A stretch of 64,000 bases of DNA. Origin: Salminus brasiliensis. Its lineage: Eukaryota > Chordata > Actinopteri > Characiformes > Bryconidae. Location: contig NC_132879.1 in NCBI RefSeq assembly GCF_030463535.1, positions 31,852,133-31,916,132 of the forward strand, in the 5' to 3' direction. The notes under the pieces were generated by a model. The model saw nothing but the letters and a program-made list of their open reading frames with translations. It did not search any database and had not been told where the DNA came from. The translations under genes and the position numbers were made by a program. This document shows positions 714 to 57,941 of this stretch, in pieces (position 1 is the first letter of the stretch; every line of letters starts with the position of its first letter).

Positions 714-3700
714 GCAGGATGACCCAATGTTGTTCCACAGCACTCCAGTAAAGTCAGACCACATTATGGATCTCCTCCTGGAGGACCTCGACCTTAGTCC
801 CAGCTTTCTGCAGACTGAGACTTTGCCCCAGTCAGGTAAGGAGCTCTTGCCACACTTTGGTCAGGATGGGCACATGGCTGGGCTAGTGTGGTCATCCTTC
901 CCACCATTTCAGCTTTCAGTGCACCACAGACCCAGTAATCATGCCATTGCAAATTCCAGTTATTGCTTGTATAAGTTCTGCTAAATGAAAATGACCCAAT
1001 CCCAGTTAATTAAGCAAGTTAATGCTTTTTTTTTTTTTTTTTTTCTTCTTTCTTTAAATGTAAAACTCTTTTGCTCTCAGTGGTCAATCAGGTGTGGCAG
1101 GAGCAGACCATTCAGCGGCTTCTGCAGCTCATAGAGCTCCCTCTGCTGGATGGGGTGTTGGATTGCAGAGAGGGTACAGCTCCCCTGTCTGTTGCCAACA
1201 ATAATGAACCTGACCTGCTCTACACCAGTAACTACTTGGACCGAGAAATACTCAAGGCGTTTAAGGACTCCCAGTGGGTTATAGTCACTTCTGTGGGATA
1301 GGGGTCAATTTGTTAGCAAAGCTAATCAGGACTTGAGGGCCCCTTGAATTGTAATACAAATTGTCATGCTTTAACACTTTCTTATCTAGAGTCCTCTCGT
1401 ACCAACCGTGTTAAAGCATTACAATTTGTTACAATTTAGGGGCCCTCAAGTCAACACAATCCTGACTAGCAGGAAGGCAACTAGATTTTCTAATCTAGTC
1501 CTCTCATACCAACAATATTCTTGCCTTCCTGCAGAGAAGATGAGTGGCTCTCCGCAGCAATAGACCTGTTGGACTTCCTGCCAGATCTTTTGGTGGTTGA
1601 GGTGAGCAGGGAGCTGCCCAGCTTTTCACAGGAGAATGAGGGTGATGAAGGTCATGGTGGCTCCAGATCCACAGGCATTGAGAAGTGCAAAGCGCTACTG
1701 TTTGACATTCTGGCCAAACACTATGGACAGGCTAGTACCCAGCCTCTCCTCCCCAGTGGCTTGAACGATGTCTACACACAGATTACTGAGCTTCTAGGTA
1801 GGTCAGGACTGGATGTCCAAAAGAACAATGCTTTACACTAGCACTAGATAAAATGTGCAGTAACTACAACAGATATAAATATTGCATATTACAATGGTGA
1901 TATTCTTTCAGTAAATTAAACCTGATTGGTTAGAGTGCCTTCACTTGTTTCATTGGTCTACACTGATATTTCCACCCAAAGGTTTATTTATTTATTTATT
2001 TTTTTGCTTGCTAATGTAGGCTACAGAAATGGAAGTCACTAATTTAATAAAGGTCAATAAAACCGATCAACCGTTTGTCCGTACCAAAAATGTTGAAGTT
2101 GGGGAGTGAGGTCGGATCCTCACAGCAATGCAGATCCAGATCTACCCCCCTCCCTTTCTTATCATGCAGCCCTAATACATAGTCACTTATAGCACAACTA
2201 GCAGTGAAAGATGCTTGGTTAGTGCCTGTGTACATGAAAATTTATAGAGACCCTTGTCCATCTGGTGCATGTATGTTGGGCTGAGGAGCCCATATTTTTA
2301 AAAGGAATACTGCCACTCCTCAGCACTCGCAGGGAGAAATGTCCAGAAAAGGCTACTGCCTTTCTAAAATTGAGTTTTCTCAAAGGGCTCTTATTTCAGG
2401 CAATAACCTTACATAAAATGCTTTTATAGCAAAAAATGAGCAGTATGCTGGGCAGCAAAGTTTTGTTTTATATATGTGCAGAACGTTGATGGAAATGTAG
2501 CCATTATGGTGATTAACAATGTATATGAAATTCCCAATACAAATACTCTCCCTATTGCAAAGTTTTGCATTTTGTGATCTTTCTAACTCCTATGTGTGAT
2601 GTCAGTAACTGCTTTCTCTGTAGTGAATGGGAAGTTTGATGTAGCTTTGGAGGTGCTGCAGCTGTGTCTAAAGTTGCTTCTCGTGGAAAGCAGAGAAGAG
2701 CTGTACAGGCTGCTGACATTCATGTCTCTGGCAGCAGACCCTGAACATGTCAGACTTCATAAAGAGGTAAAGATGTGTAACTTGCTCTTCTGTCACTTAT
2801 TTCCTTGCAATTGTCTTGAATGAAGCAACTTTCAAATTTTCAGACTGAAAATCGGATGATTATGAAAAAGACCTTCTCTAAAGCCGTAATACAAAGCAAA
2901 TGCCTGTCAAAGGGCAAAGTGGACTTGCTGCTGCTGTTCATGCTGGATAACTATCAGGACATTTTCAAGGTAACAATGACTACATCCCGCAGTTAATTGA
3001 GAGGGGGAGAACAGATTTCACAAACACATTACTAAATTAAAGTTGTAGGACCCTGAGGTCATTTTTAACCTGCCTTGCCACTTTATTTTATCCAAATCAT
3101 AAATATATATAACTGGGTTCTAAAAACTATCACTGTAGAAAAACATGGCTTGAGCAACCTCTCAAAGTGGAACCACCACAGGTCTAGTGCCTCTGCTGGC
3201 TGGTTGCAGTATGATGTGTAGCTATGCCCATCCCCCATATAAGATAGATAAGATAAGATAGTCCTTTATTAGTCCCGCAGTGGGGAAATTCACAGTGTAA
3301 CAGCAGAAAGGGATAGCAGGACACTCAGTTACAAAAATTTAGATAAATAAATAATTTACACTATATACACACAATATAGATAAGAATTAAAAAAGCAATA
3401 AACAATATTATTTACAGTAAAAGACTCTTAATTGCACATGGGGGTGGGATATTGCACATAGTATTCCCTGAACATGAACGTGTGTGTGTAGTTAAGTGTG
3501 TGTGTATGTGGTCCGCTGGGAGCAGTGCTGGTTGTGTAGTCTGACGGCAGCAGGAAGGAAGGACCTGCGATACCGCTCCTTCACACACTTGGGGTGAAGC
3601 AGCCTGTCGCTAAAGGAGCTGCCCAGTGCTGCCAGAGTCTCATGCATGGGGTGGGAGCTGTTCTCCAGCATGGATGCCAGCTTGGTTGTCATCCTCCTGT

Positions 3701-6700
3701 CTCCCACCACCTGCACTGGGTCTAAGAAGCACCCCAGGACAGAGCCGGCCCTCTTTATGAGTTTGTCCAGTCTCTTCTTATCTGCCGTCGAGATGCTACT
3801 GCCCCAGCAGACCACTCCATAAAAGATGGCAGATGCCACCACTGTGTCGAAGAACGTCCTCAGGAGCGCTCCCTGCACTCCAAAGGACCTCAATCTCCTC
3901 AGCAGGTAGAGTCTGCTCTGGCCTTTCTTGTAGAGAGCTGCAGTGTTGACTGACCAGTCCAGTTTGTTGTTCAGATGAACACCCAGGTATTTATAAGAGT
4001 CCACACTCTCGATGTTCATACCGCGGATGTTCACTGATGGAGGGGGGTGTCTGCACCTGCGGAAATCCACTACCAGTTCTTTGGTTTTTCCAGCGTTTAT
4101 CTGCAGATGGTTCTGCAGACACCAGTCCACAAAGTCCTGAATAAGTTCTCTGTACTCGCTGTCCTCCTCATTGGATATGAGGCCGACGATCGCTGAGTCA
4201 TCAGAGAACTTCTGGAGGTGACAGGTCGGTGAGCTGTACATGAAGTCAGCAGTGTACAGGGTGAAGAGGAACGGTGCCAAGACCGTTCCTTGAGGGGCTC
4301 CTGTGCTGCTGACCACCAAGTCAGAGACACAGTCCCGTGCCCTCACATACTGGGGTCGGTTGGTGAGGTAGTCCAGTATCCAGTTTGACAGGTGACTGTC
4401 CACTCCACAATGTCCCAACTTGTCCTTTAGGAGGCCTGGCTGTATGGTGTTAAAAGCACTGGAGAAATCGAAGAAGGTGATCCTCACAGTGCTGCCGGGC
4501 TTCTCCAGGTGAGAAAGAGCTCTGTGTAGAAGATAGATGACAGCATCATCCACCCCGACACCAGGCTGGTAGGCGAACTGAAGAGGGTCCATGGATGGGC
4601 TCACCAGAGGGCGGATGTGGTTGGGGACCAGCCTCTCCAGTGACTTCATCAGATGGGAAGTCAGTGCCACCGGCCTGTAGCTGTTTAGGTCCTTTGGGTG
4701 CTGTGTTTTGGGCACAGGTACCACACAAGATGTTTTCCACAGCTGTGGTACTCTTCCCAGTTTCAGGCTCAGGTTGAACATATGCTCAACTACCCTGCAC
4801 AGCTGATCAGCACAGGACTTGAGGAGCCTGGCACTGATTCCATCAGGACCTGTAGCTTTCTTAGGCTTGATCTTCCTCAGCTCATTTCTCACCTGGGTTG
4901 TTGTGAAGGACAGGTTGGAGCAGGGGGGCTGGGTGCTGGAATGTGTGAATGGGTGGTTGGTGCTGCCAGACGATGAGCCATTAGGGGATGATGATGGTGA
5001 TGATTGTGAGCCAGAAGTTCTGAGAGAAGAAGAAGGGGGAGGGCAGCATGATGGTAGTGCTGCTGAGTGGGGATACAGCAGGGGTGTCTGTGTGGGGGCA
5101 GGGCTAGGTGATTGATCAAATCTGTTGAAAAATAGATTGAGATCATTCACCCACTTCTGGTCCCCCACCACCTGGGAGTTGGACTTTGAGTGGCCAGAGA
5201 TGGTTTGAAGGCCTTTCCACACTCCCCTGATGTTGTTCTGCTGCAACTTTTCCTCCAGCTTCCTCTTGTAGCTGGCTTTCCCCTCCCTGATCTTCCTTCT
5301 CAGTTCCCTCTGCACAGCTTTCAGCTCATCCTTGTCACCAGATCTGAAGGCCCTCTTTTTCGCTTTTAGGAGAGCCTTTATATCTGGATTAATCCATGGC
5401 TTGTTGTTGGAAAAACACCGAACAGTCTTGGTGGGCACGGTGTTATCCACACAGAAGTTGACGTAGTCCGTAATGCAGTGAGTGAGATTGTCAATGTCCT
5501 CCCCATTAGGATCACACAGTTCTTCCCACACCGTTGTTTCGAAGCAGTCCTTCAGAGCCTCCTCAGACTCCTTAGACCACTTCTTCACTGTACGGGTGAC
5601 AGCTGGTTCCCTATGTACAATGGGTTTGTACACAGGCAGAAGATGAACCAGACAGTGATCAGATCTTCCAAGGGGAGGGAGAGGTGACGAGTTGTATGCC
5701 TCCTTTGTGTTGGCAAAAAGCAGGTCCAGTGTTTCCATGTAACCTGCCACACCAGAGACATACTGGGTGAAGGTGGACAGAGTGGAGGATGGAGAAGCAT
5801 GGTTGAAGTCTCCGGAGATAAGAAGGAGGGCCTGCGGGTGCTGTGTCTGCAGCCTGCACACAGCTGAGTGCAGGACATCACAAGCCGAGTCAGCGTTAGC
5901 AGAGGGGGGGACGTACGCAGCGATCATGATAACGTGCGAGAATTCCCTCGGCAGATAGTACGGCCTCATGCTAACGGCTAACAGTTCAATGTTCTTACAG
6001 CAGATCTGCTCCTTAATAGTGATGTGCCCAGGGTTACACCATCTATCATTCACAAATACTGCCAGTCCGCCTCCCTTCCTCTTACCGCTCTCCTCCGTCC
6101 TGTCCGCCCGACTGAGGTGAAAGCCTTGCACAGATACGGGCGTGTCTGGAGTCAGCGTGGTTAGCCAGGTCTCTGTGAACACCATATGTTTCAGTGAACA
6201 AACAGCCAAACTTTTAATTTCCTTTTACTCCTCAATTCTTTCCAGCTCCAGTGTTCAATACAGTTAGTGATTGACTGCCTAGGTTGGAAGAGACCACCTG
6301 CAGGAACTGGGGTCTAGTCAGGCTATCAGGCAGCTAGCTAGTGAATCCTACTAGTCGATCATTTACTGTTTAAATGTTGACCATTTGCTGTTGGTTGTAT
6401 TAATAATCTGTAAAGTTCTTTGCTTTTTATCTGATGTAAACTGTCCAATGTGACTTGTCCAGACCAGAAAATAAATTCGGCGAACTCTCTGGCCGAGACG
6501 AAGTCCAGGCTAAGTACTTAATTCTGGAGTGGTTCATCTTAAAGTAATATTAAATTTAAGGCAATGATCTGTGGTTTTATCTGCCAAGACAGTTCAAGGA
6601 CCAAATTCCATCTTGCAGATATGGTCAGGGACCAGCAGCTGGATGTGTTGAGTGATTTCCTGCTCAAAGAAAAGTGCTCCATGCTATGCTCAATGGTGGC

Positions 6701-27873: not shown

Positions 27874-30800
27874 TCATGCAATTGCTTTTGCCTCTGGCAA
27901 AAACGCCTCCCAGTACTTTATCAGCTAGAGAGAAAAAGAGAGAGTAATGGTTATTAATAGAATTCTGTGAAAAGTCTTAAACAGTACAACAGAACAGAAA
28001 AAGATTGTTTACAGGCCTACCTGTTGCTGTGATTGCAACAGAGACTCCAGATACCTAATAATTTGCTTCTTGAAATCCCGAGTCTTCTCTTTCTGTTCCA
28101 AAAAAAATAATAAAAAGCAGATATAATCAACACATCGGCACCTATGATTGTAGGCAACCAGCATATTTAACAACATGCGTACAGTCATGCTGCATGCCCA
28201 CCTCAAACCTGATGACCTCTTTGCGTACAGTCGCAGAAACCCTCTCAAAGTCTCTCTCGTACTGACTGACCTTGGCCTCCCACTGCAACATAAAACATCC
28301 TATAAATCACATCTGACCTGCTGAGGGATACCAAATGAAGTTAACAGAACAGCTGCTCTCATGCTCTTTCAACATGCGCGCGCGCACACACACACGCATG
28401 CAAATCAAGCATTCAATTATTGTGGTACGAAGTATTTTAATGCAAGAAGAAATTTAAACAAAAGGATGCAAACTGTACAGTACCAAGACACAGATGTCCC
28501 CCTATGTTATGCTTTACACTGCACCAAATTGTATGCTTTTTATAAAGGTGAATAAAAAAATTAATGCTTATTAGAATAGAAGAAAAGCTTCCCGTCCTCT
28601 CTTGCTTTTAAAACAGCCTAAATTCTTCTTAGAATGGACCGCAATTTTCAATGGGATGTTTCCAGCATCTTGTGGAAGCCATGCCAACAATAGTGCAGCA
28701 CACAATTTCTGCAGGAGTACTTTCATACTGCTGCCTTCATCTCCAGTTCTTCCACATCCCAAAGGTGTTTTTTAATTTAGATCTGAAGACTGGGAAGGCA
28801 TGTTAATGAAAGTACGCTGAGGCGACGTTTTCTTTGGAACACGGTGCCTTTATCATGCTGGGTGTAGTCGTTAAAAGATTGGCAAGTTGTGGTCATGAAG
28901 GTATTGACATGGTCAACAGCTATACTCAAATACACTGCAGCACTAAAGTCATGATTGATCTGTATTACCAATCCAATGTGCACCAAGAAAATATCCCCCA
29001 CACCATTACACCTTCTACTGTTGACATAAGGGAGATTGGGTCCATGGATTCAAGCTGTTGGTGATCAATTCAGACCCAACCATCTGTGTGCCTCAACTAA
29101 AAAAGGATCCATCAGACCAGGCTAAGGCTGTTTTTAATCACAATTTGAAGGGACACAATTTTCTTATTGCAGGGGATACAAAAAAACAAACAAAAAAAAA
29201 AACACCCAATACAAACGTGTGTGAAAGTCCTGCTGATGATCAATCAGAAACAGTCATTATTAATTAACAAGCAGCTTTTGACGTTACATGTCTGGGAAAG
29301 GATGAGCGCTTCATCTAAGCAATCGAGTGTGGCAATTGACGAGTTGCTACCAAAGAAAAACAGCACATCATGTGTGAAAGTATTTTGGTTTCAGGAAAAC
29401 TGACTTGCATCAAAAACAATAATGTCAGTAAACTGATAATGTATCTTAATGTTATTTATTTAGTTATTCAATTATATTTTTAATGTTTAAAAATAAAACT
29501 CAAAACTGCATTTCATCTGTAAACCTTAAGGAGTTTTTCATTTTGGAATACGTTTCTAATTATATTTGATAGAGGCTTTAACCACTAACCGGTTTGGAAT
29601 TTAGGTAAAAAAAAAAAATATATATATATATTAATAATGATTGCAATGTAAATCACAATGGCAATACTGTTCAGAAAAACCACAATCAGAGCATTTTCCC
29701 CAAATCCCCAGCCCCAGAACAGGCTACGTTTTTCCACTGTTCAACTGTTCAGGTTTGGTGAGCCTGAGCCCACTGCAGCCTCAGCTTTCTGTTCTTGGCT
29801 GACAGAACCCCATGGAGCCCAACATGGTCTTCTGCTGTTGTAACCCATCGACCTCCAAGTTTGTGGTGCATTCTGAATTACTGTAGCCTTTGTATCAGCT
29901 CAAATAATCAGCAGTTCTAGAAATACTCAAACAGGCCTGTCCGGCACCAACAATCATACTGAAAATGATTGTGACCAGATTTTAACCCTATTCTGATGGG
30001 TGATGTGAACATTACCTAAAGCTGCTGGTTCGTATCTGCATGATGTTATGCATTGCATGTCGCCACATGATTGGCTAAATAGGTAACTCCATGAATACGG
30101 TATACAGGTGTTCCTAAAAAGTGGTTTGGGAAATACCTTTAGTGTAAAATCTTCTACAGGTTTCAAAAGAGAATGCAATAATCATGCATGAAGTACAAAT
30201 TCGAAGTATCCTACTTTTGATTAAAGAGAAAGCGTTGCCACCACGGTCTACTCACTTTCGGAATTTTAGCAAAACACAATACCAGACCACAGTCCTAGGC
30301 AAGGCAGCTGTGTTGTGCGTGTGTGGTTCGGCCTTCAGGTCAGGATTACCTCAACTATCTCGTCCTTGGCCTGCTGAAGTTTGTCTGGTTTGTTGGCCCA
30401 CAGTAGTTTGGCCTCTGTCTCCCTCTTCTTCTGCAGCATGTTCTGAGCGTCCTGCCATCGCTGCCAAGCCTTCATCCGCTGGTCAAAGCAAGCCTAGACA
30501 AACATGTACACACACAGACAAAGTGTACTAGTTCAGATAGACTGATGTATGTACCAGTCTCCAGGACCAAGCCCAAGTCTCTGAGACCATCACAACCACT
30601 GTAAAGGCCTTTGGAAAACCCAAACAGTTCAAGACTAAAACTGGCTGAACAATGATGAACTGGCATTAAATCTAGGACAAGATGTGCATCAGTGTACATA
30701 AAGCCTTTATACACAAAAATAGAGACTGTTCTGTAATGTTTGTACAGGATATTAAATTCAATTTACTATGTGTGCATGTCTCTCCGTACCCTGACAGCTC

Positions 30801-33800
30801 CTAGCAGGCGTATGTAATCAGCGAGGAGCTCAGCAAAGATAAAGAAGTCGTTAGAAGCCTGGTCCTGATGGAGCTGCTCAATGCGATCTTCCACTTCAGC
30901 CAGCTGGGACAGAGCTCTGGATAGTGCAGTGTTGTCCTCAGAGCTGCCCAACATTGCCACACTCTTGGCAAACATGGCTGTGTTCATAGACAATTCTGTA
31001 AGCAAACACCACAGTTAAGCCAGCACTTCATCCACCCACTGACCCACTAAACCGATCTGTGATGCAGACAATGTGAGTAAGCATAGATACTGTACATAAA
31101 GTCCCAGCTACCTTTCCTGTGGTTGACAAGGGAGTCCACCATGGCGTGCAGCTTCCTTAGCTGCTGGTCCTCACTCTCCACTTCCTGTAGCTTCTCCTCA
31201 AACCACTACAAACATTCATTTACATTTGTATTAACACTTTTGGTCACTTTTGTATTACACTTTGTCACTTTTGGTCAAGGAAATCCTGTGGTGCAATGTA
31301 ATGACAAGGTTGTGATTGAGAAAGGGTTCTTGCAAAAACAGATTTAAGGGAGTGCAAAGAACATTACTTACAACATCTGACTCGTTCATTTTAATCGTCA
31401 TCTTGCTCACTGCGTCAGTAGCCTTGTTGATCATCTTGAGGAATCCAGCTCCACTTAGAGTTTGGGTACTAACTGCTCTGGGTAACTAAGAGAACACATA
31501 CACGGACACAGGTTTAGTGAGGCATAACTTTTTTCCCCATTCTGAGATAATTAACCGCACTGTGGATAGCATTACCTCCTCTTTTTCTAAAAACTCTCTC
31601 ACATCCGGGTCCTGCAGCAGAGACGGATGAGACACAACTCTCTGGAGGTACCTGAGCACAGAACAAGCAAGTGGGTGACACATAGGAATGCTTAAATGAT
31701 TTTAGCAGCATTTATTTGATTATCAAAACCTATTCTTAAATAAACATCAATCCATTTATTAAACATTTATTTAAAAAAATATTTTGTTAAATGAAGTAAC
31801 AAAAGGATATTGGTCTGTGAATCACCTCTCTAGAGCAGCTCTCCTCCTCTCAACAAACTCGGCTGATGAGGGGTCTTCTTTGCCAACCTTCACTTTGGTC
31901 ATTCCTAAAATCAAAACATGCATTCAAGGCCAAGCTAAGCTTAAAGGCATGGTTCGGTAAACAATCAAATTCCCATAATTGTCTTACCCCAGCTGCATGG
32001 ATCAGTCAAGATATGTTAGGTGTTTAAAGTTTGATTCTTGAGCTTTGAACTGGAGCTACAAGACTAACGCTGCTTAATAGTCAATAGTCACTAGAAGTAT
32101 AATGATACCCAAATGTGTACCCAAACATTCACGGTTCACAGTGCCTGCAATCGCATGGAGAATATATGGGTCACACAATTTGGGCAAAAAAGGTAATGTG
32201 ACAAGCACACGTGACACTTTGAAAGGTATAAAATGTTGCATTTGCATGGTATTTTGGAAACTGTAGTGGATTTAGGCGTAGCACTATGGTAACTGTAGTC
32301 TTGTTGTCTCTTTCCCTGTTCCACCCACAACAGTCGCCCAAACCTAAATACAGTCTTACGCACTCAACCCACTCAAGCCACTTTCAGTTCCTCATTATAG
32401 TGGTGCAGATTTCTTGATGAGATTTAGAGCACAGCAGGACTTAGAAACTACACCACATTTAAAATGTCTCTTCCCGGCGTTCAGCCTGGACCTGGATGCC
32501 ATTTGAGCGGATTGAGAGTGTCAGTCTGTATTTACAGAAGAAATGTAGGTGACTATTTTGTTCTAGTGCTGCATTAGATTCATTGCTCTAGTTTAAAACC
32601 AGAGAAGCAAAATTTGAACACCAAACGTGTTGGCTGATTGACTTCATATTGTGTAGGCAAATAATTATGCGAATTAAAAAAAATTGAAAATACTTCAAAG
32701 TGCAACTTGAGGGGTCCATATTATGGATTTTCCTCGTATTTTTTTTTCTCTTGTGATTCAATTACAGCAATGGTAAGCAGAAATGGTAAACTGATTTTTC
32801 TGGACATCATAAAAAACAATTAATTCTCAGCTTAGTTTGCTTACACAGACTGTATAGACTAGAAAGTGAATGGTGTAAATTGGAATTGTATTAGTGTTTA
32901 CATACAATAAACTTTTCCCAAAAGGTGCGGGGAAAAAATAAAAAAAAACAAAACAAAAAAAAACACTTTTCCATCATATGGGCTCCTTTACTCAAAAATA
33001 TTCTGAAATAGTTTTCCTTCTATAAAGACCAGGTGAGGTCTTCTTACCCAGAATGCTCTTCTCTGGTGGTGGGGGCACAATGTATCCATTCTGTGCGTGT
33101 TTCTCAGACAGTTTCTCATACAGACCGAGGAAATCACTGAAGCGCCTGCGCACCATGAACTGCTTACTGCGGAACATGGACAGCGTTGTCTGTGTGTTGC
33201 CGTATGTGTGAAAGAGAGAAGAAACATCAGAACACCACAGGTACATTATTTGCTGGAAAATAGAAGCATCAAACATTTGTAAACAGTAGGCAAATGAAAA
33301 TACCTGTGTTGAGACTTTGTAGGCCATATAGGCATTCATTCCATCTCCTGCAAAAAATAAAAAATAAAAAAAATAAAAAGAGTCCGCAGTGAGCAAATCC
33401 TGATGCTCAACACACATCAGACACAGTCACCCACATGAGAGATCCATAGGTTTTCTTACTGCAAATAAATACTCATGAAAGGTCATGTAAAAGATATCCG
33501 CCACGACCACACAGGGTGCAAGAGGACAAACAAAGCCTGGCTGCAGCTCAATAGCAGTGGCCTACTTTCACCCTCACAGGGATGAAGGCAGGAAATATAA
33601 ACTAGCTGCCATAGACAGAAAGGGGAAGTGAGACTCAAGAGTTAGGGGACGCTCAGCGTTTCTGCGGACCATTGTGTTGCGGTTTAATAAATCAAACAAT
33701 TAAAACGTCATTAGAGTGTTGTTAAGTAGGGTCAACTCAACTGTCAAAAATGGCTTACTGTCAAGTGTGGCTCAGATATCGTGTGTATGCAAATAACTTC

Positions 33801-34640
33801 CTTAGAGGTAAGGCAAGTGGAATGGGGTGGGGGGGGGAGACTTACCGACTTTCTCTGGGTTTGTGACCGAAATGTTCAAATCGAACGTGTCCTCCTTCTC
33901 CTCCTCCTCAAGCTGAGAGCAAGAGAGCATGTGAGAAAAAGATGACAATCATGGACAAAATTACCAAGAGTTTATATTGACTACAGAACTTTAGTACTGT
34001 TCCACTACAGACAACAGTCCAGCTACCTGAGCCTCATATCCCAATGCAATGCAAGTATATTACTTGAACATTGTTTGATTCAAACAGGTAAAGTAACACT
34101 CAACACATTTTTTATATTAACTAGAAAAAAAGGAATTGTCATGTGGGTGCACCACAAAAATTCTGCATGTCTGCAGGTGTTGCACTTGTACAAATGAAGA
34201 CAACAACAGAAGCATTCCAGTGTGTTTTTAAGTAGAGGGGAATCCAATCTCACACCACACGCCTGCCGTGAAAACAGTTGGGCTTGGCTCGGTCTCATAC
34301 CTCTTCTAGTGTTTTGGGCTGGGGTTTGGAGGTGCTGGCTGAGGAGGAGAGTGAGGAGGCTGGTGCAGAGGGCTTTGCTTCTCTCTTCCTTTGGTCATTA
34401 TGAGGACTGTCCAGGGACAGCTCAACTGTGGCCTCTGAGATGGAGAGAGAGAGAGAGGGAGAGAGAGAAAATATGGGTGAGAAAGTTCAAATGACAAAAA
34501 GTTCCCCAGAAGTGAGTAGAACCCTGACATCTGGGAAAGGCCAGATCATCAGTCTGCCTCCACAGAATAACACACCTCGGCATAAACCACATAAACCACA
34601 CATGCGTTACTTCCTGTACATGGCCAAAGACCACACTTTC

Positions 34641-34694
<54 letters not shown>

Positions 34695-37291
34695 CATTAC
34701 ATGCTTCCATCAGCACAGCGAGGGTCGGGTCATTGTGAAGGAAGATTTTCCTGCGCTTCCTGAACGTTTAAAAAAAAAAACATGCTGAAATGGCATTTCC
34801 TTTTCAAATACTACAGGAGGGGCTGCATTCACTTTTTTTCCTTACACAAACGACAAACCTTTAAGCACAAGAGGAAGGTACATTTCAAAATAAATAAATA
34901 AATAAAAACTGCATACCTGCAAACAGATCCTCATCATCAGAGTGCAACCCGTTAGTCTTTGTGCTGGTGTTCACGCTGGGTTTTGCAGCAGTAGCAGCAA
35001 CAGGTGGGACTGTGAAGGCCTCCTCCGTAAAGAGATCGGTTTGAGCATTACTAGATTGCTCAGATCGGGCTTTACTGGTTGCTTTTGCCTCTATGAAGAT
35101 CTCATTAGGTTGTGGTTTTTTAATCACCGCTCCCAGAGGCTCCTTAAACAGGTCCTCGTCTTCATCATCACCAAACAGGTCAGCGCTTGCTGGTTTCTTT
35201 CCAGCCACAGCGCCGCCTGCGGGCTCACTGAAAATGCCAGTGGCGGGGCCCTTCAGGGGCTCTTCAAAAATGTCCTTCTGCGGCTTTCTGATGACATCAT
35301 TTTCAGACGCCTTTAGAACCTCAGCACTGGCACCGCTCTTCACTGCTGCACTCGCAGCCTTCTCAGTGACATCACTTTTCTGTGTTTTCTCACCAAAGTC
35401 CAGTAAAGGGGCACTTTTTGTGTCAAGCACTGGAGCAGCTCCAGACTCTCCTAAGGGGTCGCTGAACAGATCATCTTGCTCCTCGCCAGCTGCCTCGTCC
35501 ACCGGGACAGCAGTCGGAACTTTACTGAGCCCCGCGCTCGCCGTCTTCTCTGGCTCGGCGCTCGTCTTGTTCAGTGGGTCGTGGAAGAGATCTGCTGGGG
35601 CTTCACTGAAAATGTCTTTAGGAGGCGCGCTGGCACTCACGAGAAGAGGAGGATCCATCGCGGAGTCTGAGAGCGTCTTCAGAAAAAGAGAGGAATATAA
35701 TCAATTTAACAACAGGAGGAAAAAAAGAAATCAAAATGCTTAGTATAATTATGTCTAAGACATTGAGCTTGGTGTAGGCTTCAGCTGAAATTGGAGGGAT
35801 TCGTTAGAAAAAGAAAAACAACATCACACGCTGTGACGACAAGACTTACATGTGTAATCTCCACTTACTGGAGCTACAGAACTCCCAAAAACAGAGCTCC
35901 AATTACTCCAAACGACAATTACTCAACCACTGTAACACTCCACACTAAGCTGCACATCCCACTGCAGTGATCCAGGCTCTTCCTGAAGGAAAAGCAGCAG
36001 TTGAAGCGTGTGAGCGCATCTGAGGATCACATGACACAGGCCTGAGCCAGCTTTACCAGCAAGCAGCACTGTGGACACGACCAGAGAACTTTGGCCACTG
36101 ACTTCCCAACCGCCTCTGTGCAGCACTGCGCCCCAGAAATTGAGTCACACAGCTGGCAACAGGCTTGCAGGAGTGTTAAAGAAGAGGGAGGAGAAATAGC
36201 TAGCTAGATACTGTTACTTTGCTAAACAGCTTTCCTTGACAAAAAAAAAAGAAAGAAAAAAAAAAAGAAAAGGAGTGACTCAGTCCCCCAACATCTCGCC
36301 CATATCTGAGCCATCTCTGATTGCTCAGCCCACATCTGGACGGCGTTACTGGTGCTTTGCTGTGCATGCAACGTTAAAAGCAGCTTAGCAGCAGCAACAG
36401 GCTCTGGACGATTAAGAGGCGATTCGCGCTCCCCAGTATTTAGCTCCAAATGCAAACCTAAAACCACCAGCTGCTTTAGTAGCCCTGAAACCTCGAGTCA
36501 CGGTCAGCGTAAGAGTGTGTCCCAGCGCTGCCAGGGTCACATTCCTACAAATGACGGTGTTTACACCGTGCAGAGCCGAAAGGCCGCGGCAAATGGACCG
36601 CAGTAGGCAGCGCTAGCTAACTTCGTTAACTACAGAGCTGATCTTGTGGTCCGACCCGTGTCTGTGTAACTGCAGCAGTCCACGCTTTTAGGTGCCACAC
36701 AAGTCGATGAATGCAAGGAGAAGTAGCTACAGATGTGAGTGAGTGAGTTAGTGAGTTAGTTAGTTAGCTAGCTGCTCTATAAACCAGCCAGCTCCTTCTT
36801 GCTTTAGGCTTGTTTGGGAGGGGGACAGGCGCTATGCCGCGGCTCGCTGATAGCTTAGCTAGCCTAACGACGAAGTTAACTTCGCTAAATGAGAAACGGG
36901 CAGCGCTGCCCGGGCGCTGTGGTGAATGACAACACGGCGAAAGGAGGAGAGCGGGCTCTCCGGCTAGCTCGCTACTAGCTAGCTCGCCCCCGGAGCGGTT
37001 TTTTTTTTCTTTCAGAGAGCAGGCAGCGCGAACAGCAGCGAAAGTCGAGTGTAGGAAGACAGCGAGCAGGGGAGGGAGAGTTTAAGCCTGAAGTTTAGAG
37101 CCACCACTACGGCTCCAGCAGCCTCCCGGCCTGCTCCAGCACCGCGGCTCTCACACACTTAGCTGGCTACTCACACCGCCTGTGAAAATATCCGCGCCTT
37201 CATCGCTGTCCTCATCCTCCAAGTCGGGCTCCAGTTCCTGCTCCTCTGACTCGGGAAAGGGAGGGGGACTCCGCTCTGAACTGGCCGCCAT
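27874..37291 (-). CDS. snx1: Sorting nexin 1 (SNX-BAR subunit of ESCPE-1/retromer), long N-terminus
   Basis: Fifteen minus-strand exons: 37291-37175, 35676-34917, 34434-34301, 33912-33846, 33347-33304, 33189-33048, 31904-31826, 31651-31576, 31485-31372, 31205-31112, 30995-30790, 30493-30350, 28282-28202, 28092-28021 and 27924-27874 (TGA). They give 726 aa against about 522 in human. SNX1 pairs with SNX5/6 to tubulate endosomes and retrieve cargo. The PX domain (about 345-473) has [33 protein letters not shown] and PPPPEKS. The BAR domain (about 500-725) has the [16 protein letters not shown] amphipathic segment, [20 protein letters not shown] and the final [14 protein letters not shown]. Extra length comes from one 760-base exon encoding repeated acidic D(L/I)F motifs. 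The start at 37291 (GAAGATGG, good Kozak) was preferred over an in-frame ATG at 37297. The exon 1-2 junction has a second phase-compatible option (donor 37176/acceptor 35666). Confidence 0.95.
28640..30126. mobile_element. Long decayed copy of the CACTGGCCACTTTA-TIR element
   Basis: Blocks such as GAAGACTGGGAAGGCATG, GAACACGGTGCCTTTATCAT, AAAATATCCCCCACACCATT, CTTGGCTGACAGAACCCCAT and GTCTTCTGCTGTTGTAACCC are recognisable parts of an abundant teleost repeat. The right end keeps CAGGTGTTCCTAAAAAGTGG, matching the terminal repeat. The stretch 29130-29700 is unrelated AT-rich sequence, probably a later insertion. It lies in the SNX1 intron between the exons at 28202-28282 and 30350-30493. Confidence 0.6.
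32707..32995. mobile_element. Small MITE in an SNX1 intron
   Basis: GAGGGGTCCATATTATGGAT at the left and CATCATATGGGCTCCTTTAC at the right form imperfect inverted ends of a non-coding AT-rich element. Exact edges are uncertain. Confidence 0.5.
34641..34692. repeat. (CA)26 microsatellite in an SNX1 intron
   Basis: Long uninterrupted CA run, 207 bases upstream (in transcript order) of the 34434 exon. Confidence 0.95.
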
Positions 37292-38659: not shown

Positions 38660-41600
38660 ATGTCTCGGAGGAATCATGCGGACACTCAGGGTGAAGGAGA
38701 AGACAGACAGCCGCTGCTTGGCGGAGAAGCTACAAAAAACGACTTAGTAGACGAGGGTGAATTTGTGATGATTTTATGAAATGCATTTAATATGTTTCCA
38801 CTCTTATTCTTGATCATAGAAGCGTTCATTTAGCTATGCTAGCTTAACTGGGTTCGTCGCAGCTCGTTTGTGTGACAGACACTATTCCCACGAATAGTTA
38901 TGAATTATAGTTTATTAATCAAATTAACAACCCGTACTGCACAAACAGATCTACACAAACTGTAGTGAAGTTTTTATGCATTTAGAATGAACACAACGTC
39001 GTTGTCACGCGAAAACCTCGTATTTCCATTTGTACCGTTTTCATTTTTGACATACTTGGCTGGCTAGCTAGAATCTGTCCGCTATTCTTTACATTGTGTC
39101 AAAAACGTGGTGAATGGAGAAGCAGAAATCCTCCAGAATGAATTGGAACAAAATCTTTTTACATTGATGTGCATTGAAACTTAAGAAGGTTTTATATATT
39201 CTAGTGGATATTTACTAGTGATTTGAAAAGACAACATAATGTAAAAAATACTATGTGCAATACCCCCCTCCCCCACATGTGCAATTAAGAGTCATTTGCA
39301 ATAACCTGTAAATAATATTGCTATTGCTTTTTTAATTCTTATTTATATTGTGTATTTAGTGTAAATTATTTATCTACTTTTGTCATTTTATCACTTTCTG
39401 CTGTGACCCTGAGAATTTCCCCACTGTGGGACTAATAAAGGATTATTTTATATGATACAAATTCAGTATGTGGTGTCAAATCAGCAGAGTAAGCAGTAGA
39501 ATTTGTAGAAACCTTTATTGATTTTCATTTTCTATGTTCATTTAACACTGCATGAGGCTGGGGTGTGTTTGTGACCCCCTCAGCTAACTCGTGTTTATGA
39601 AACAGGTGACGCTCCAAGTGGTTACCAGTCGAAGCTGAGTTATGAGGAGGCAGTTGAGGAAGCAGGTATGGGCTCCTACCTGTACTTCACATTGTTTAAA
39701 GCGGGGGTTATTACCTCCACCTGAATCATTTAACCATAGTTTGAACCCTGTAGCTGCTCTGTACACTGTGCAAGTTATTCAAATAGAAATGCTCTAAATT
39801 ACTTAAAAAAACTCTTATTGTCATTGACCTCCAAAAAACATTGTTGCTTCTTGTGTAAAGTCACCATTTTGGAGATACATGTTTTTCATGTGATCTATAG
39901 TACTTGTGTAGTATACTGTAGTGACAGGTGTGTGAATCCTTTATTAGCTATCAATTTGTACAATCATTCTAAACTTAAATATTATATAATGCTAATTAAC
40001 ATACACACCTTGGACGACTTTCTGAACCTCTTATCAACACATAGATTTTCAGTCTGTTAAAGAAAGTTCTGGTATGCAAATGAAAGAGATCTGCTCTCTG
40101 AGAGAGAGAGAAAAATGGATGAGCTTGTCCAGAAGAATAATGTGCAAATTTGAAAAGTGGAGGATGTGTAATGCAGATAGTCAACACAGAGCAATGTATG
40201 CCCAAACTAGGTGAACAAAGTTAAATGCCAGAAACAAGCAGAATAATAGCATATCATTCTGATACATATTTATGGGGCAGTGGTGGCTCAGCGGTTAGAG
40301 TGCCGGGCTATTGATAACAGGGTTGTGAGTTTGATACCCGAGCTTGGCAAGCTGCCACTGTTGGGCCCTTGAGCATGGCCCTTTACCCTCCTCGCCCCCC
40401 CCTGGAACTGGAGTTGGCTGCCCACCGCTCTGGGGGTGTGTACTCACTGCCCCTAGTTCACTAGAGTGTGTGAGTTTACTACTACAGATGGGTTAAATGC
40501 GGACATAGTACATAGTACAGTGACAAATATGTGCACCTTTACCTTTTATTCAGTATTACATATCCAGTACATATGAATATGCTGCTATTTAATAGTACAG
40601 TGTCTACAATATTTTAGCAAAATATTGCAGTAAAAGTGTGTGATGATAATAAGCCATCCCACAAGCTCCCGAAATCATCACATAAAATAAAAAAGTCAGG
40701 AGGGCACACTCCAGTAAGATAAGTAATTATTTAATTGAAGTGACATCCTCTAATTACCACCCTATTATTTACCCTGCTTGTCCTTTACCCCATCCTGTGT
40801 CCTCAGGGTTCGGGCTGTTCCATGGCCTGCTGTTGCTGGTGTGTGGCTGGGCCAATGCCAGCGATGCGGTAGAGATACTGTGTGTGTCCTTCTTGCTGCC
40901 CACAGCCCGCTGTGACCTGCAGCTCAGCTCTGCAGATATGGGATTACTCACTGCCAGCATATTTCTCGGTCAGTGACAGAATTTTAGTTGACCTTTGTTT
41001 AATGGAGCATTAAATGCCATTTTTATATTTGCTTATACGTCTTGTGCTACTTGTTTATTTCATGCTCATAGTCACATTTCAAGATTCGGTTTTATTTTAA
41101 ACCATAGTTTAACCAAGCATTATAACCATAAAATGAGTTAAAAATCCAGCAGGTAGGCTAACCAATGGTGACTTTATATTGTTCTTGTGTTCAGCAGTAG
41201 CAGACTGTGACTGAAAAGTAAGATTAAATGCTCAGTAAGGATAATTGTTTTCGGTGTGGACACCAAAAAGTAAAAAAGTGACAGGGCCTCATCAAATTTA
41301 GTTCTGCATTTGGTTCAGCTCATTTCTCGTGACAGGAAAATGGAAGGAGCATAATAGTTTCTTTTATCAGGATAAAGTTACATATTTCTAACATCATTAT
41401 AACATGGCTGACATAGTTTTATTTATACTATTATACTATTTATACTAAGGACTACCTTTTTATATACAGTTAGAATATCCTAAGGACAGCTATAACTATT
41501 TATAGTTAGATTTATACTAAAGACTATCTTTTATATATAGGTAATTATGTTAAGGACTGCCTTTCTATAAGGTTAGATTTATACTAAGGGCTGCCTTTAT

Positions 41601-48600: not shown

Positions 48601-51370
48601 GAATCTAAGACATAGCATTGTGTACTGCCAAAATCACTCTAACTGAACGACCCAAAGTTAGATTTAAATTAGACAGGGCTGGCCCAAATTCAGGCTGGTT
48701 ATGGTGGTAAATGAAGCAATCATACTGGTTATGGATTGCACTGATCCTAATGAACTCAATCCTAATTGACTGATCCTAATTAACTAAAATGATTTTGTCT
48801 GTTCAGGCTGCAGGCAAATTGTATTTGTTTCTCAGATTGGATCTGAGTGAGATACTGTCTGCACTGTTATTTGCAAGTAATCAGATCGAATTTGTGGACA
48901 TCACAGCCCTATGTGCATGGGTTGCAGTGGTAACAACATAGGCGCTAACGAGCTGCTTTAATACGCAGAAGCAGGAAAAGTGGAGGTCACTCTGGATTTG
49001 GCATGGCCGCTGTCTGTTGCGTTGTGTGTGACGCAAAAGGAACTCTGAAAAGTGTCCAGACTGAGATGCATCTATCCAAATTCGATTGTAATCTTCAAAA
49101 GTAGTTTAAATTTGACTGGCAAAGATCATGTGTTTTTTAAGTGTCCAGACTACAGACTAGAATTTGGACAAAAATCAGATTTGAGCTGGCAGTCTGAACA
49201 TAGCATTTGTGTCAATAAATACACTACCACAAGCCAGTATAAAATCAGACTAAATATAATGTGGAAAATGTGCACCAAATCAGACATTCTAATTGGGGGG
49301 ACAAATATTTTTCCATTGCGCGTGTACCTGCAGCCCAGCATTGGATATCACCTCTTTTATGGTTTCTGTACTGCCGTTTTCTCCCATGTCTTAGGGTCTG
49401 GCTCCAATCAGACAACTGTTTGCTGATCCTTTGGCCTCCAGGAGCATTGCCCTGCTCGTCATTTTCTTCAGCATATCATTTGGGTATGTATGTGAAGGCT
49501 GCACTGTTGAAATAAGCTGTTACAACATCTAACAGCAACAGGACACCGTACACAAATATTACATTTTATATCTGTAGGTATTATGGCTTGTGGATGTGGT
49601 TTCCTGAGCTCTTCAGGAGAGCTGAAGATGGAGGTTCTCCATGTGCCAATATGTCTCAATCTCAAAACCAGGGGAATGAGAGCTGCTATCCAGTAAAAAC
49701 TGCAGGTGGGATATTTCAAAGATTACATTATCTTTAAGATTATGACCACTCCCATAATAAAAAATGTGGGATAGGGTGTGGGATACCTGTTAGTACCTAA
49801 AGAGTTGGTTTCTCGTAGTTGACATGTTATCTGCAGGTAAAATGGCATCAAGACATCAAGATCTCTGGTATGGCCAGAGCATCTCCGAAAGGGCAAGGCC
49901 CTTCTTCTGTGGTGCTCCCGGTCAGCAGTAGTGAGTACCTACTGACAGTGGTCGGAGGAAGGACAAACCATGAACTAGAAACAAGGTGTTGAGCGCTATG
50001 ACTCATGACTATTCCATGAGGGGCTACTGTGAAACAAGGCACAGATTTTGTTTAATGCTGGTTATGGGAGGAATGTGTCAACACACAGTGCATCCCACCC
50101 TGCTGCATGGTTGCCGACTGGACAGAGTGCCCATTTTAACCTGTGTCCACCATCAAAAGTGACTAGAAGGGATACACCCATGTTGGGACTAGACCTTGGC
50201 ACGATGGAAGAAGCACTCCTTGGCCTGATGAGCTTATATTACATCATGTAGACGACTGGATACGCCTGCACTATTTTCTTATGGGATACACTAGAACAAC
50301 AAGTTCCATCTGCAGCAGCTTCATATCACAACTTAACAGGACTTGAAGTATCTGCTGCCAAAATCTTGGTACCAGATACCACAGGGCACATTCGGCGGTC
50401 TGTAAATTGCGTGGTTGTGGTGGCACATACCATATCATTAGCATGAAGCATAAAGTGGCTTATCAGTGTACATTGAAATAGAGAAGAGCGTAATAAAGAG
50501 GCAAGGCGAGGCAAGACTAGACGTGGCTAAGGAACATTAGCACTTGGTGAATCAGGATTCATATTAATATGGTGTTTCGTTGCACAAGAAGTATTCGTGA
50601 AGTCATTGTCAGTTAACTGATGCCCACTATTTATTACAGTGTATATGGAAGGCTTTGTGACTGCAGCCTCTAACCTTCCTGGGAACATCTTTACGATCCT
50701 GCTGATGGACACAGTGGGAGGGAAGATCCTCCTCTGTGAGTAACTGTACACTTGTTTTTGGGGTTGTTAGCTTGATGTGCTTTATGTTTCTCTCTAATGT
50801 AAGGATAACAGTACTGGTCTTGGGTCAGTTGATTGCATCAGTATATCAGTGTCTGTCTGTAATCATACTGCCATTTTCTTTTTGCTCATCTTTCTCTATT
50901 CTGTCTGGTCTCTCAGCTGGGAGTCTGTTGGTGTCCAGTGTAAGTGTATTCCTGATTTATGTGGTGAAGACTAAAAGCCAGAGCCTCATAATGTCTTGTG
51001 TGTTCAGCGGTGTGTCTGTCATCTCCTGGAACGCCCTGGATGTAGTGGGCACCGAGCTGTACCCCACACAGCTACGGTATCTATCCTCAAAGATTCTCAA
51101 GAATGATTCAAGAAAACAGTGCAGTGACTGCAACATACACAAGCTTTACACAACACATGTTAAATGTTAATACGTTCTCTTTTCAGCTCCTCTGCATTGG
51201 GCTTCTTCACTGGAGTGGGCAGAGTGGCAGCAATCATGGGAAATGTAGTATTTGGCCAGCTGGTGGACTCTAACTGTGCCGTGCCTATATTGCTGGTTTC
51301 CGCCCTGTTGTTGGCTGGAGGTCTAGCAGCTCTGCGGCTACCCGGAACCAAACAGATGGACTTGACGTGA
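38660..51370 (+). CDS. SV2-family major facilitator transporter lacking the large luminal domain
   Basis: Thirteen exons: 38660-38756, 39606-39665, 40807-40968, 41846-42008, 42244-42365, 44273-44436, 44629-44709, 47716-47811, 49395-49483, 49578-49705, 50640-50735, 50917-51076 and 51187-51370 (TGA). They give 533 aa with consistent phases. Twelve membrane segments are predicted. MFS motif A is GYLADQRGRQ (residues 116-125). SV2-type signatures are GSIPVIFSYFSEF, SWRVFVVLCSIPS, MPESPLFLME, LPGNIFTILLMD and SWNALDVVGTELYP. The cytosolic N-terminus has an acidic dileucine sorting signal, DRQPLL. The TM7-TM8 luminal loop (about 355-387) is only 33 residues, with N-glycosylation sites N369 and N378 and two cysteines. 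SV2A/B/C have over 100 residues of pentapeptide repeats there. In length it resembles SVOP, but its motifs are SV2-like. The substrate is unknown. Confidence 0.88.
39249..39452 (+). mobile_element. 3'UTR fragment of the same LINE family as 3241-6187
   Basis: The sequence from ATACTATGTGCAATACCCCC to GGACTAATAAAGGATTATTT is the plus-strand counterpart of 3241-3460. It is a severely 5'-truncated insertion in intron 1 of the SV2-like gene. Confidence 0.8.
40274..40547 (+). mobile_element. tRNA-derived SINE
   Basis: GTGGCTCAGCGGTTAGAGTG matches a pol III A box, and GGTTGTGAGTTTGATACC resembles a B box with one change. The body TGCCACTGTTGGGCCCTTGA is typical of SINEs common in catfish and related fishes. 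It lies in intron 2 of the SV2-like gene. Confidence 0.75.
41425..41610. repeat. Imperfect tandem repeat of about 50-70 bp
   Basis: Units containing TTTATACTAAGGACTACCTT, TTTATACTAAAGACTATCTT and TTTATACTAAGGGCTGCCTT occur in series with related partial units, in an intron of the SV2-like gene. Confidence 0.65.
42366..44272 (+). other. Intron 5 of the SV2-like gene
   Basis: No exon or clear mobile element recognised in this 1.9-kb intron. It is AT-rich with an A-rich stretch near 43300-43360. Confidence 0.5.
45608..45655. repeat. (CA)n followed by (GA)n microsatellite
   Basis: About 16 CA units followed by a short GA run in an intron of the SV2-like gene. Confidence 0.85.
47455..47515. mobile_element. 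Fragment of a conserved SINE core
   Basis: ATTTAGCAGACACTGTGATC and CAGAGCAACTTACAAAAG resemble the conserved central domain of V-SINE-type fish retroposons. No head or tail is visible. Confidence 0.4.
48040..48660. mobile_element. Possible highly decayed Tc1-like relic
   Basis: Blocks such as GGACCATTGTCCTTTTTGCC and ATATCATTCTTGGGTTCTTT resemble a known fish Tc1-like family on the complementary strand. Ends and ORF are not recognisable, and the match is from memory. Confidence 0.3.
49835..50430 (+). mobile_element. Decayed copy of the ACACCAATCAGCCATAAC-TIR family
   Basis: TCTGCTGCCAAAATCTTGGT and ACCACAGGGCACATTC match blocks in the copies at 26043-26508 and 60300-60686. TIRs were not found. 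It lies between two coding exons of the SV2-like gene. Confidence 0.5.
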
Positions 51371-55283: not shown

Positions 55284-57941
55284 TCAGCTTGAGTTGAGGC
55301 TCCTCTGGTTACGCATGAGGGGCCGGTGACTATTTAGCACATCCATAGAGTGCTGCCAGTGCCAACAGGAGCGGCAGTAGTATTTGAAACAAGCCTGAGA
55401 GAGCAACAGAGAAAATACTGAGTTACAATCACAATCAGACGTCTGACGTTTTCATTTACGTCACAAACATGAATACACTAACAGTTCTAAAAAAACCCAA
55501 AGCTTTACTTTTTAACACATTTACAGATAAACTGATAATATTGAACAGGTTGATCAATAATGCCAGCATATATTTATGACCCAAGGTTTTACATGTATTA
55601 GTAAATATACAGCCAGTAAAAACTAATAATTTGCTACTTTTGGTCAGGGCATGCATCCAACATTCCAACATGCTTTCCTTAAACGACAGGATGTAACCTT
55701 GGTTGATGGGACCACTCGGATCACCATATAAAACATACTCTGTGCAACTACATGAAAAATACAGCAAAACAGCACCACCAGCGCTACAATATTTTTTTTA
55801 GTTAATCTAGAATAGTACTATATAATGTTCGAATATAGGCCAATATTGTGGGTTACAGGATTTTTTAAAATCCAGTAAACATGAACAGCTTTTATACAAA
55901 AGTTTTAGTAAATAGCTTGATGAATTTTGTTAAAAAGCCATTGTATGCATATAAACCACAATTTAGCTCTTCCACACCTTGTCTAATGCACCCCAAAAGA
56001 CTGAAAATGTAGTTCTGAATTTTGATGGTCGCATTTTTGGCAACAACAAAATACAAAGCACAAAACTCTACAACTTACAGAGCCCCGCTGGTGACACCCC
56101 ACATAGATAAAACTAAGACTTAGTAAGGTATGTGAACGAGATACTAACTCGTGGCCATGATGTAGTAAGGTGTTGGAACAAGATTCGTAAGGTGTGGGAA
56201 CAAGATCTTAAGTTGTGGCCATAACTAAGTAAAGTGTGGGAACAAGATCATTAGTTGTGCCCGTGACTTAGTAAGGCATGGTCCTGCTCCTCACTACGCC
56301 CTGCCTCCGCACATTACTATATAGCTTACAGAATTAGTTCTTTAAGACTTTGTGTTTTTAGAGTTGTTTTTGTTTCTTAAATTCTTAAACTATTTGTATC
56401 TTTGCATCATGGATCACAATGTTCTCACCTGGTCTCTGCAGAAAAACGGGCCTGGCTGACCATTACAGACTTGGCACATGGAGTCATCAAGGTATGGGTC
56501 AATCTGAACCTAAAACAAGGGGAAGACAAAAGCATGAATAAGCAGGTGTAGCTGATAGTGGAAGAAACATAACCATTGTTTGGCTATCATGAACACTGGA
56601 CATGTAAAACTCCTGGATACAGGAGAACACACTTGCCCCCTTACCTTCTTGGTGAACTTGGTGGTTTTGATCTCCACAAACGCAGCACTCACTGCTTTTA
56701 GGTAGCTCTTCTGGCTCCTAAAAGTCACACGTCCAGATCCTGCAAAAAAAAAACCCAAATATTTAAAACTCAACAGTTGTATCGAAATATCCATGATATG
56801 CAGATACAATGCACTGATGTAGTAGCAAAAGTAGCAGACCTATGGGATATTTGTGCTTGTCTGTGTCAATCCCAGCGTAAGTGATCCCTCCGAACAGTTC
56901 CTCCATGATGTGGGCCAGAGCTTCGGCATTCAGCATGCCATGGAGAGCTCCTACAAACACTGTCCTGCTCGGGAAGAGCCGCAGCGAGGGGCAGCGTACA
57001 AAATTACTGTCTGTGATCACCCATGGAATCACCTGCACCTATGTGAACAGGAGAAACAGGAGAGCTTTATCACAATACCTAAAGCCTTCAGTCTATCTCA
57101 CCCCTAAATATGAAAAGTCAGACCAGCATGATATGGATGAAATTTCACATTTCTTTTTTAATATCATTGTTGCTATTTGCTAGTTATTTTGATTGTGATT
57201 TACTTTCCCAGTTAGTAGATGATTCTGGGCCAAATAGGGCATAGTTATGGCACTTAAGGGTCAGCTATGGCGATGGCAAATGGCAAAACTGGATTAAGCT
57301 GTAGCCGCCACATTTAGGCTACGTTCATTATTCAATTCCATTTTTTTGTTCAGATCAGATTTGGCAGCTCTTGACAGTTCACATGCATAAATGTAAGAGT
57401 TTTTTCTGGACCTGGGAGTACTTGCTCTGTTTTAGCACTAAGATTCAGACAAAGCCGTCACTGTCATTCCACAGCAGTATGTGGGCCGTATGAAAGTGTA
57501 AGTAAGTATGGGCCAAAACTGGGTCATGACTATTTGACATCTGGGGTCAACACAGTTTTAATACAGTGTTGGTATAAGCCCTTAACCTACAAGCAATCTG
57601 AACTGATGCACAGTTTGAAAGCACCCATATGAGGAGGTCCATCTTTTACTGAGGTACTCACAGTCTTGCTTCGTATCCTTTTGCTGGACATCTTGTAATA
57701 GTACTCCAGGTAATCACCAGGATGCAGATGCTGCTGGGTGCAGGCCTGCAGCAGAGCCTTCACTGACTTCTCTGACTCAAATACTAGGTACACATAACCT
57801 ATAGGGAATATTCAGTCTTAATGTGCATGCTGAGAAATCCCATAATTTCTACTTACTGGAAAATGTGCAAAATGGCTTCAAACTGAAAAAGGGATCTCTG
57901 GGAAATCTGTGTTGCTGTTAATTTAAAAAGAATAAATACTA

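Follow-up and report, generated by a model that had tools for sequence, protein, structure and literature searches.

A tail of D[LI]F and FAM21-like PL motifs in an SNX1 copy of Salminus brasiliensis: a candidate docking array for SNX27 and VPS29

The fish Salminus brasiliensis carries an SNX1 gene whose first two exons encode a far longer N-terminal region than that of human SNX1, crowded with D[LI]F tripeptides, and the question raised by this locus is which partner or partners such a tail might serve. The first-pass annotation took the array to suggest raised avidity for SNX27 or another partner, and noted in passing that many of the motifs are followed by (D/E)PL. We analysed the window (the whole 64,000-nucleotide stretch containing the gene), set it in the 1.07 Gb assembly from which it comes, and compared it with human SNX1 and with two relatives from that assembly, SNX2 and another copy of SNX1 (the second SNX1 copy). 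The tail is likely to be an SNX27 ligand, as had been proposed, and we tentatively suggest that it also docks on the Retromer subunit VPS29.

Gene structure and identity of the window SNX1

A complete SNX1 gene occupies the minus strand of the window. When its 15 exons are spliced at their AG acceptors and GT donors, they yield a protein of 726 amino acids with no break in the reading frame. Exon 1 (37175–37291, minus strand; 117 nt, donor GTGAGT) encodes residues 1–39, exon 2 (34917–35676, minus strand; 760 nt, donor GTATGC) encodes residues 40–292 plus one base, and exons 3–15 (27874–34434, minus strand) supply the linker, the PX and BAR/Vps5 domains and the stop codon. The 292 residues from exons 1 and 2 agree with the first-pass estimate of about 290, and the 760-base length given there for exon 2 is exact. 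In a search of the PDB the best match to the whole protein was 8afz_A, Sorting nexin-1 (E = 8.4e-230), which we take to be human SNX1, and the Pfam families PF09325, PF00787 and PF03700 all scored above their cut-offs, the last of these (the N-terminal sorting-nexin family) matching residues 4–42. The PX part (89 residues) matches human SNX1 at 84%, compared with 73% for the SNX2 of the same genome. Judged by its PX domain, its Vps5-type BAR domain and its closest resemblance to SNX1, the gene classifies as an SNX1 ortholog, the identity it was originally given.

The length of exon 2 could in principle be an artefact of the gene model, the real exon being short or skipped. Its acceptor at 35676 is indeed weak (4.3 on a home-made PWM, compared with 3.1 to 13.8 for the gene's other 13 acceptors), one out-of-frame AG inside the exon scores slightly above it (4.6), and some internal GT sites are moderate (the best out-of-frame site at 6.7 and the best in-frame site at 4.8, against 7.6 for the exon 2 donor). 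Set against this, the in-frame internal acceptors all score lower (2.2 at best) and the frame is open up to a valid acceptor. Skipping of the exon would shift the frame, because it enters in phase 0 and leaves in phase 1 (760 = 3 × 253 + 1), and the phases read from the splice sites of the homologous exons in the second SNX1 copy and in SNX2 are identical. The frame remains open over all 253 codons, as did none of 20,000 order-1 Markov sequences, with the qualification that composition contributes to this openness, since one antisense frame of the exon contains only a single stop. We consider a mistaken exon 2 very improbable and infer that the exon is used at full length.

Several other features were observed in the window. 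At 3495–6224 (minus strand) an open frame of 910 aa encodes a reverse transcriptase domain (PF00078) and looks like a non-LTR retrotransposon with its frame unbroken. Judged by eye, cyclophilin-type isomerase frames (PF00160; 9240–10947, plus strand) belong to PPIB and a frame with a PX domain (PF00787; 15712–15966, minus strand) belongs to SNX22; SNX1 lies together with SNX22 and PPIB on human chromosome 15 as well. Tc1-like transposase remnants, also named by eye, lie within SNX1 intron 12 (approximately 28600–29900, minus strand). A frame at 56766–57038 (minus strand) resembles a CPEB RRM exon and frames at 40686–40973 and 50706–51167 (plus strand) resemble exons of an SV2-type transporter, in each case by eye and with no Pfam match to the single frames.

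Short motifs in a probably disordered tail

Residues 1–292 of the window SNX1 contain nine D[LI]F tripeptides, one in exon 1 and eight in exon 2, together with one GIF and one EIF, making 11 [LI]F in all and bearing out the first-pass count. The exon 1 motif is a DIF (37184–37192, minus strand) aligned to the first human SNX1 motif, and the last DLF (34921–34929, minus strand; residues 289–291) takes the position of the second human aDLF and recurs in both paralogs, SNX2 and the other SNX1 copy. Shuffling of exon 2 (100,000 times) produced a mean of 0.11 and a maximum of three D[LI]F, and the observed eight were never reached. The consensus reported for SNX27 binding is D/E-x-x-D-I/L-F (PMC9038204). 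Four of the nine motifs fit this strict aDLF form and five have no acid at position −3, such that the earlier description of the array as acidic D(L/I)F holds for the former and fails for the latter. An acidic residue is found two places past the phenylalanine in 10 of the 11 [LI]F. The LFa motif of FAM21, given as L-F-[D/E]3-10-L-F (PMC4786876), has no strict match in the window SNX1 and one near match, a segment with a single non-acidic residue (35146–35178, minus strand; residues 206–216). A motif scan of residues 1–292 found no clathrin box and no DPF/DPW, FxDxF, NPF or DLL motif, and on this basis a role as an endocytic adaptor was rejected.

Four of the exon 2 motifs run on into a proline–leucine pair, giving [LI]F-x-[DE]-P-L in the forms LFHDPLN, LFSDPLG, IFEEPLK and LFKEPLG. 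DLFHDPL (35572–35592, minus strand; residues 68–74) is followed by N and comes nearest to the IFDDPLN of FAM21 repeat 21. DLFSDPL (35452–35472, minus strand; residues 108–114) is a strict aDLF motif followed by G, its DPLG being that of Chaetomium thermophilum Vps5. DIFEEPL (35254–35274, minus strand) spans residues 174–180, and DLFKEPL (35134–35154, minus strand; residues 214–220), again followed by G, combines a strict aDLF with EPL. The composite pattern [LI]F.[DE]PL has a shuffle mean of 0.0017 and a maximum of one in 100,000 shuffles; where LF blocks were kept intact it arose at most twice, and never in the four copies observed. The weaker pattern [DE]PL (four observed, mean 0.32) was equalled by 17 of 100,000 shuffles and PL alone (six observed, mean 1.7) by 350 of 100,000. 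The pattern of a VPS29 PL ligand, namely P-L in a tail segment in the form of FAM21 R21, is present in the window SNX1 in four copies. On the strength of this match to the VPS29-binding PL of FAM21 repeat 21, the (D/E)PL tails are probably more telling than the number of D[LI]F. Caution is warranted here, given how very short the PL motif is and given the secondary contacts reportedly required by other proteins that carry it (PMC12311110). Our search of titles and abstract openings found no description of PL motifs in vertebrate SNX1. The FAM21-like PL array is likely to be the new element of this protein.

The region encoded by exon 2 is probably disordered. AlphaFold2, run on exon 2 alone, is in agreement (mean pLDDT 50.6, pTM 0.12, 1 of 253 residues at pLDDT 70 or more and no secondary structure reported), although the prediction was made without an alignment and is weak evidence. 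The charge–hydropathy rule is not informative here: exon 2 falls slightly on the folded side (mean H 0.451 vs boundary 0.445), residues 1–340 have H 0.430 vs 0.453, and the PX–BAR part has 0.431 vs 0.415. A search of the PDB with exon 2 alone returned no match at E up to 10.

Origin of the extension

The second SNX1 copy (contig C29, 7389700–7399600) is 80% identical to the window copy over 351 PX–BAR residues, its exons having been joined by eye, and we presume the two to be duplicates from the teleost whole-genome duplication. Its exon 2 is 142 nt long, compared with 760 nt, and exon 2 of the window copy is therefore 206 codons longer. The exon 2 of SNX2 (contig C6) measures 115 nt. Counts made on N-terminal pieces of 146–156 residues gave three D[LI]F in the second SNX1 copy, two in SNX2 and two in human SNX1 (from residue 9), with no [DE]PL in any of them; human SNX1 has no PL at all, and the other two have one each, of a different kind and not preceded by an acidic residue. 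Residues 1–340 of the window SNX1 hold nine D[LI]F and four [LI]F.[DE]PL. The excess of motifs over human SNX1 noted at first pass is thus real, at nine versus two, and the first and last motifs are common to all four proteins in a MAFFT alignment. A published alignment of SNX1 proteins, with Danio rerio among them, is reported to show no PL conserved across metazoan SNX1 (PMC12000511), which means that the PL feature may be limited to some fishes or to one paralog. Counts of aDLF motifs across species are presented in figure S4C of PMC9038204.

The third D[LI]F of the second copy, TDIFSEE, is one above the human complement. It resembles an 11-residue segment of the window SNX1, although MAFFT placed it on GIFSEPA instead, and because of this likeness one middle motif may predate both SNX1 copies.

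It had been suggested that the repeats grew by internal duplication within exon 2. A recent event of this kind is not visible in the DNA and is not supported. Exon 2 contains a single tandem array (11 nt, two copies) and five families of direct repeats (16–24 nt, two copies each), while the flanks of the motifs share a mean identity of 30%, compared with 28% (sd 7%) at random in-frame anchors; 4 of 45 flank pairs exceed the random 95th percentile (39%), the best reaching 43%. Leucine codons are shared in 7 of 15 pairs at the motif core and in 3 of 6 at the PL, against 25% expected (the numbers being small), and codon agreement in the six other classes of motif position is near or below expectation. 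One repeat pair, IFSEAP/IFSEPA, agrees at 85% over 20 nt and could be a small duplication. Going by these repeats and codons, stepwise gain of short motifs, or an old duplication, fits better than a recent internal duplication.

A source outside the gene was also considered. The exon 2 protein, searched against the 1.07 Gb assembly at E up to 1, found only itself (four candidates scored) in a search insensitive enough to have missed the short exon of the second copy, and no relatives were confirmed in viral_contigs or genome_contigs. A blastp comparison with FAM21 tail pieces gave 43.9 bits, a score reached by 0 of 100 plain shuffles and by 5 of 100 shuffles that kept the motifs. Neither this insensitive genome search nor the FAM21 score, matched by some motif-keeping shuffles, gives clear support for descent of the extension from FAM21, from a transposon or from some other gene.

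Candidate partners and known Retromer ligands

Repeat 21 of FAM21 contains a PL motif, 1330-IFDDPLNAF-1338, that is reported to bind a hydrophobic groove of VPS29, and its equivalent is described as missing from human SNX1 and SNX2 (PMC7618989). Human SNX1 is reported as having no PL motifs and not binding Retromer, and binding of a GST-SNX1 N-terminus to human Retromer is given as undetectable (PMC12000511; mouse SNX1 1–139 in the table, human in the legend). In the same report Vps5 of C. thermophilum docks on Vps29 via DPLG, and its 71–80 peptide, which contains DPLGPL, binds mouse VPS29 at 54 µM. Both sides of the FAM21 contact are retained in the fish. Its FAM21 (contig C4) ends in IFDDPLNVFGGN, that is, IFDDPLNVF plus three residues. 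The last exon of its VPS29 (contig C18) is identical to 6vab_A residues 145–182, with all of the pocket residues named in PMC12000511 and PMC12311110 (L152, Y163, Y165, K173 and V174) kept. The fish thus has the partner surface, and its SNX1 motif is very similar to the ligand known for that surface. In the pieces of the fish FAM21 tail that were examined, PL is attached to 1 of 18 [LI]F.[DE] motifs, so it is not obvious that SNX1 would need four copies. One VPS29 exon (C18; locus positions 598–1806) has a frame that stays open, for 403 aa in all, into a preceding L/S/W-rich low-complexity repeat that is presumably intron.

The reading we favour, with somewhat less than even confidence, is that exon 2 forms a two-surface docking array for SNX27 and VPS29 with a layout like that of FAM21. 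Exon 2 would be a disordered docking tail combining two kinds of short motif, in which the D[LI]F motifs would engage the FERM domain of SNX27, as those of mammalian SNX1 and SNX2 do, and the four R21-type [LI]F-x-[DE]-P-L motifs the hydrophobic pocket of VPS29, possibly with assistance from VPS35. A BAR-domain dimer bearing such a tail would hold SNX27–Retromer through several weak simultaneous contacts, and the membrane-tubulating ESCPE-1 complex would be tied directly to Retromer, unlike what is reported for human SNX1. Altered cargo recycling would be the expected outcome of such docking. Taken separately, SNX27 is a likely partner on the evidence of the motifs, and binding of the exon 2 tail to it can be expected with good confidence; binding to VPS29 is a serious but uncertain prospect.

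That the array raises SNX27 avidity and does nothing else, with the (D/E)PL tails as mere acidic context, is an appreciable though unlikely alternative, close to what was first proposed. Nine D[LI]F are present, single aDLF peptides of human SNX1 and SNX2 are reported to bind SNX27 at 13–38 µM with binding weakened by mutation of either SNX1 motif (PMC9038204), and FAM21 too is described as using aDLF motifs for the SNX27 FERM groove (PMC7618989). It sits less well with the five motifs that have no acid at −3, and with a composite spacing that recurs four times, beyond what shuffles with intact LF blocks produce; the published descriptions of SNX27 binding contain no P-L requirement that we could find. 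An array serving chiefly VPS35, in the manner of the FAM21 LFa motifs and with SNX27 and VPS29 as secondary partners, is improbable. LFa motifs are reported to bind VPS35, the LF sequences of yeast Vps5 being predicted to do likewise (PMC12000511, PMC7618989), and the acid two places after nearly every [LI]F and the near-LFa segment would suit such a role, but strict matches to LFa are absent from the protein. Near-neutral growth of a disordered tail, with the motifs as tolerated drift that gained no partner, is more doubtful still. The length of disordered tails changes easily, and the second SNX1 copy and SNX2 have no extension; on the other hand, the motifs exceed what composition predicts, and exon 2 has none of the long copy-paste DNA repeats that might have multiplied them passively.

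The two-surface reading could be extended to the paralogs, at a more speculative level. In some fishes one SNX1 copy may have gained FAM21-type PL motifs, binding VPS29 directly and rejoining ESCPE-1 with Retromer by a new route into a yeast-like assembly. It would then have FAM21, TBC1D5 and VARP as competitors for the pocket, while the second copy would stay separate. The lack of PL motifs and Retromer binding in human SNX1 has been used as a partial reason for the splitting of the yeast pentameric Retromer in animals (PMC12000511, PMC7618989). A vertebrate genome in which one SNX1 copy has four PL motifs of the FAM21 kind and its paralog has none of these would allow that explanation to be tested in nature, as well as the way in which endosomal recycling is tuned by multivalent short motifs.

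Among the closest known systems is the tail of the orthologous mammalian protein. Mammalian SNX1 and SNX2 carry tandem aDLF motifs that are SNX27 FERM ligands. The fish protein aligns with human SNX1 at its first motif and again at its last; the window copy differs in having nine D[LI]F to the human two and four [LI]F-x-[DE]-P-L where human SNX1 has none. The tail of FAM21 (WASHC2), described as unstructured, is likewise an array of LF–acidic motifs, and the [LI]F-x-D-P-L-N core of its repeat 21 is nearly identical to one in the fish SNX1 (IFDDPLN vs LFHDPLN). FAM21 is, however, a WASH subunit and the window protein an SNX-BAR, PL occurs on four motifs in the latter and one in the former, and the likeness does not clearly extend beyond the motifs, as 5 of 100 motif-keeping shuffles score equally. 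Fungal Vps5 is the counterpart of SNX1. Yeast Vps5 is reported to depend on a [K/R]-hydrophobic element besides PL, and no such element was found in the 20 residues preceding any of the four fish motifs, where the PL is instead preceded by D[LI]F. The absence of PL from human SNX1 makes it unlikely that the fish motifs were inherited from the fungal state, even though the D-P-L-G of the disordered Vps5 N-terminus recurs in LFSDPLG.
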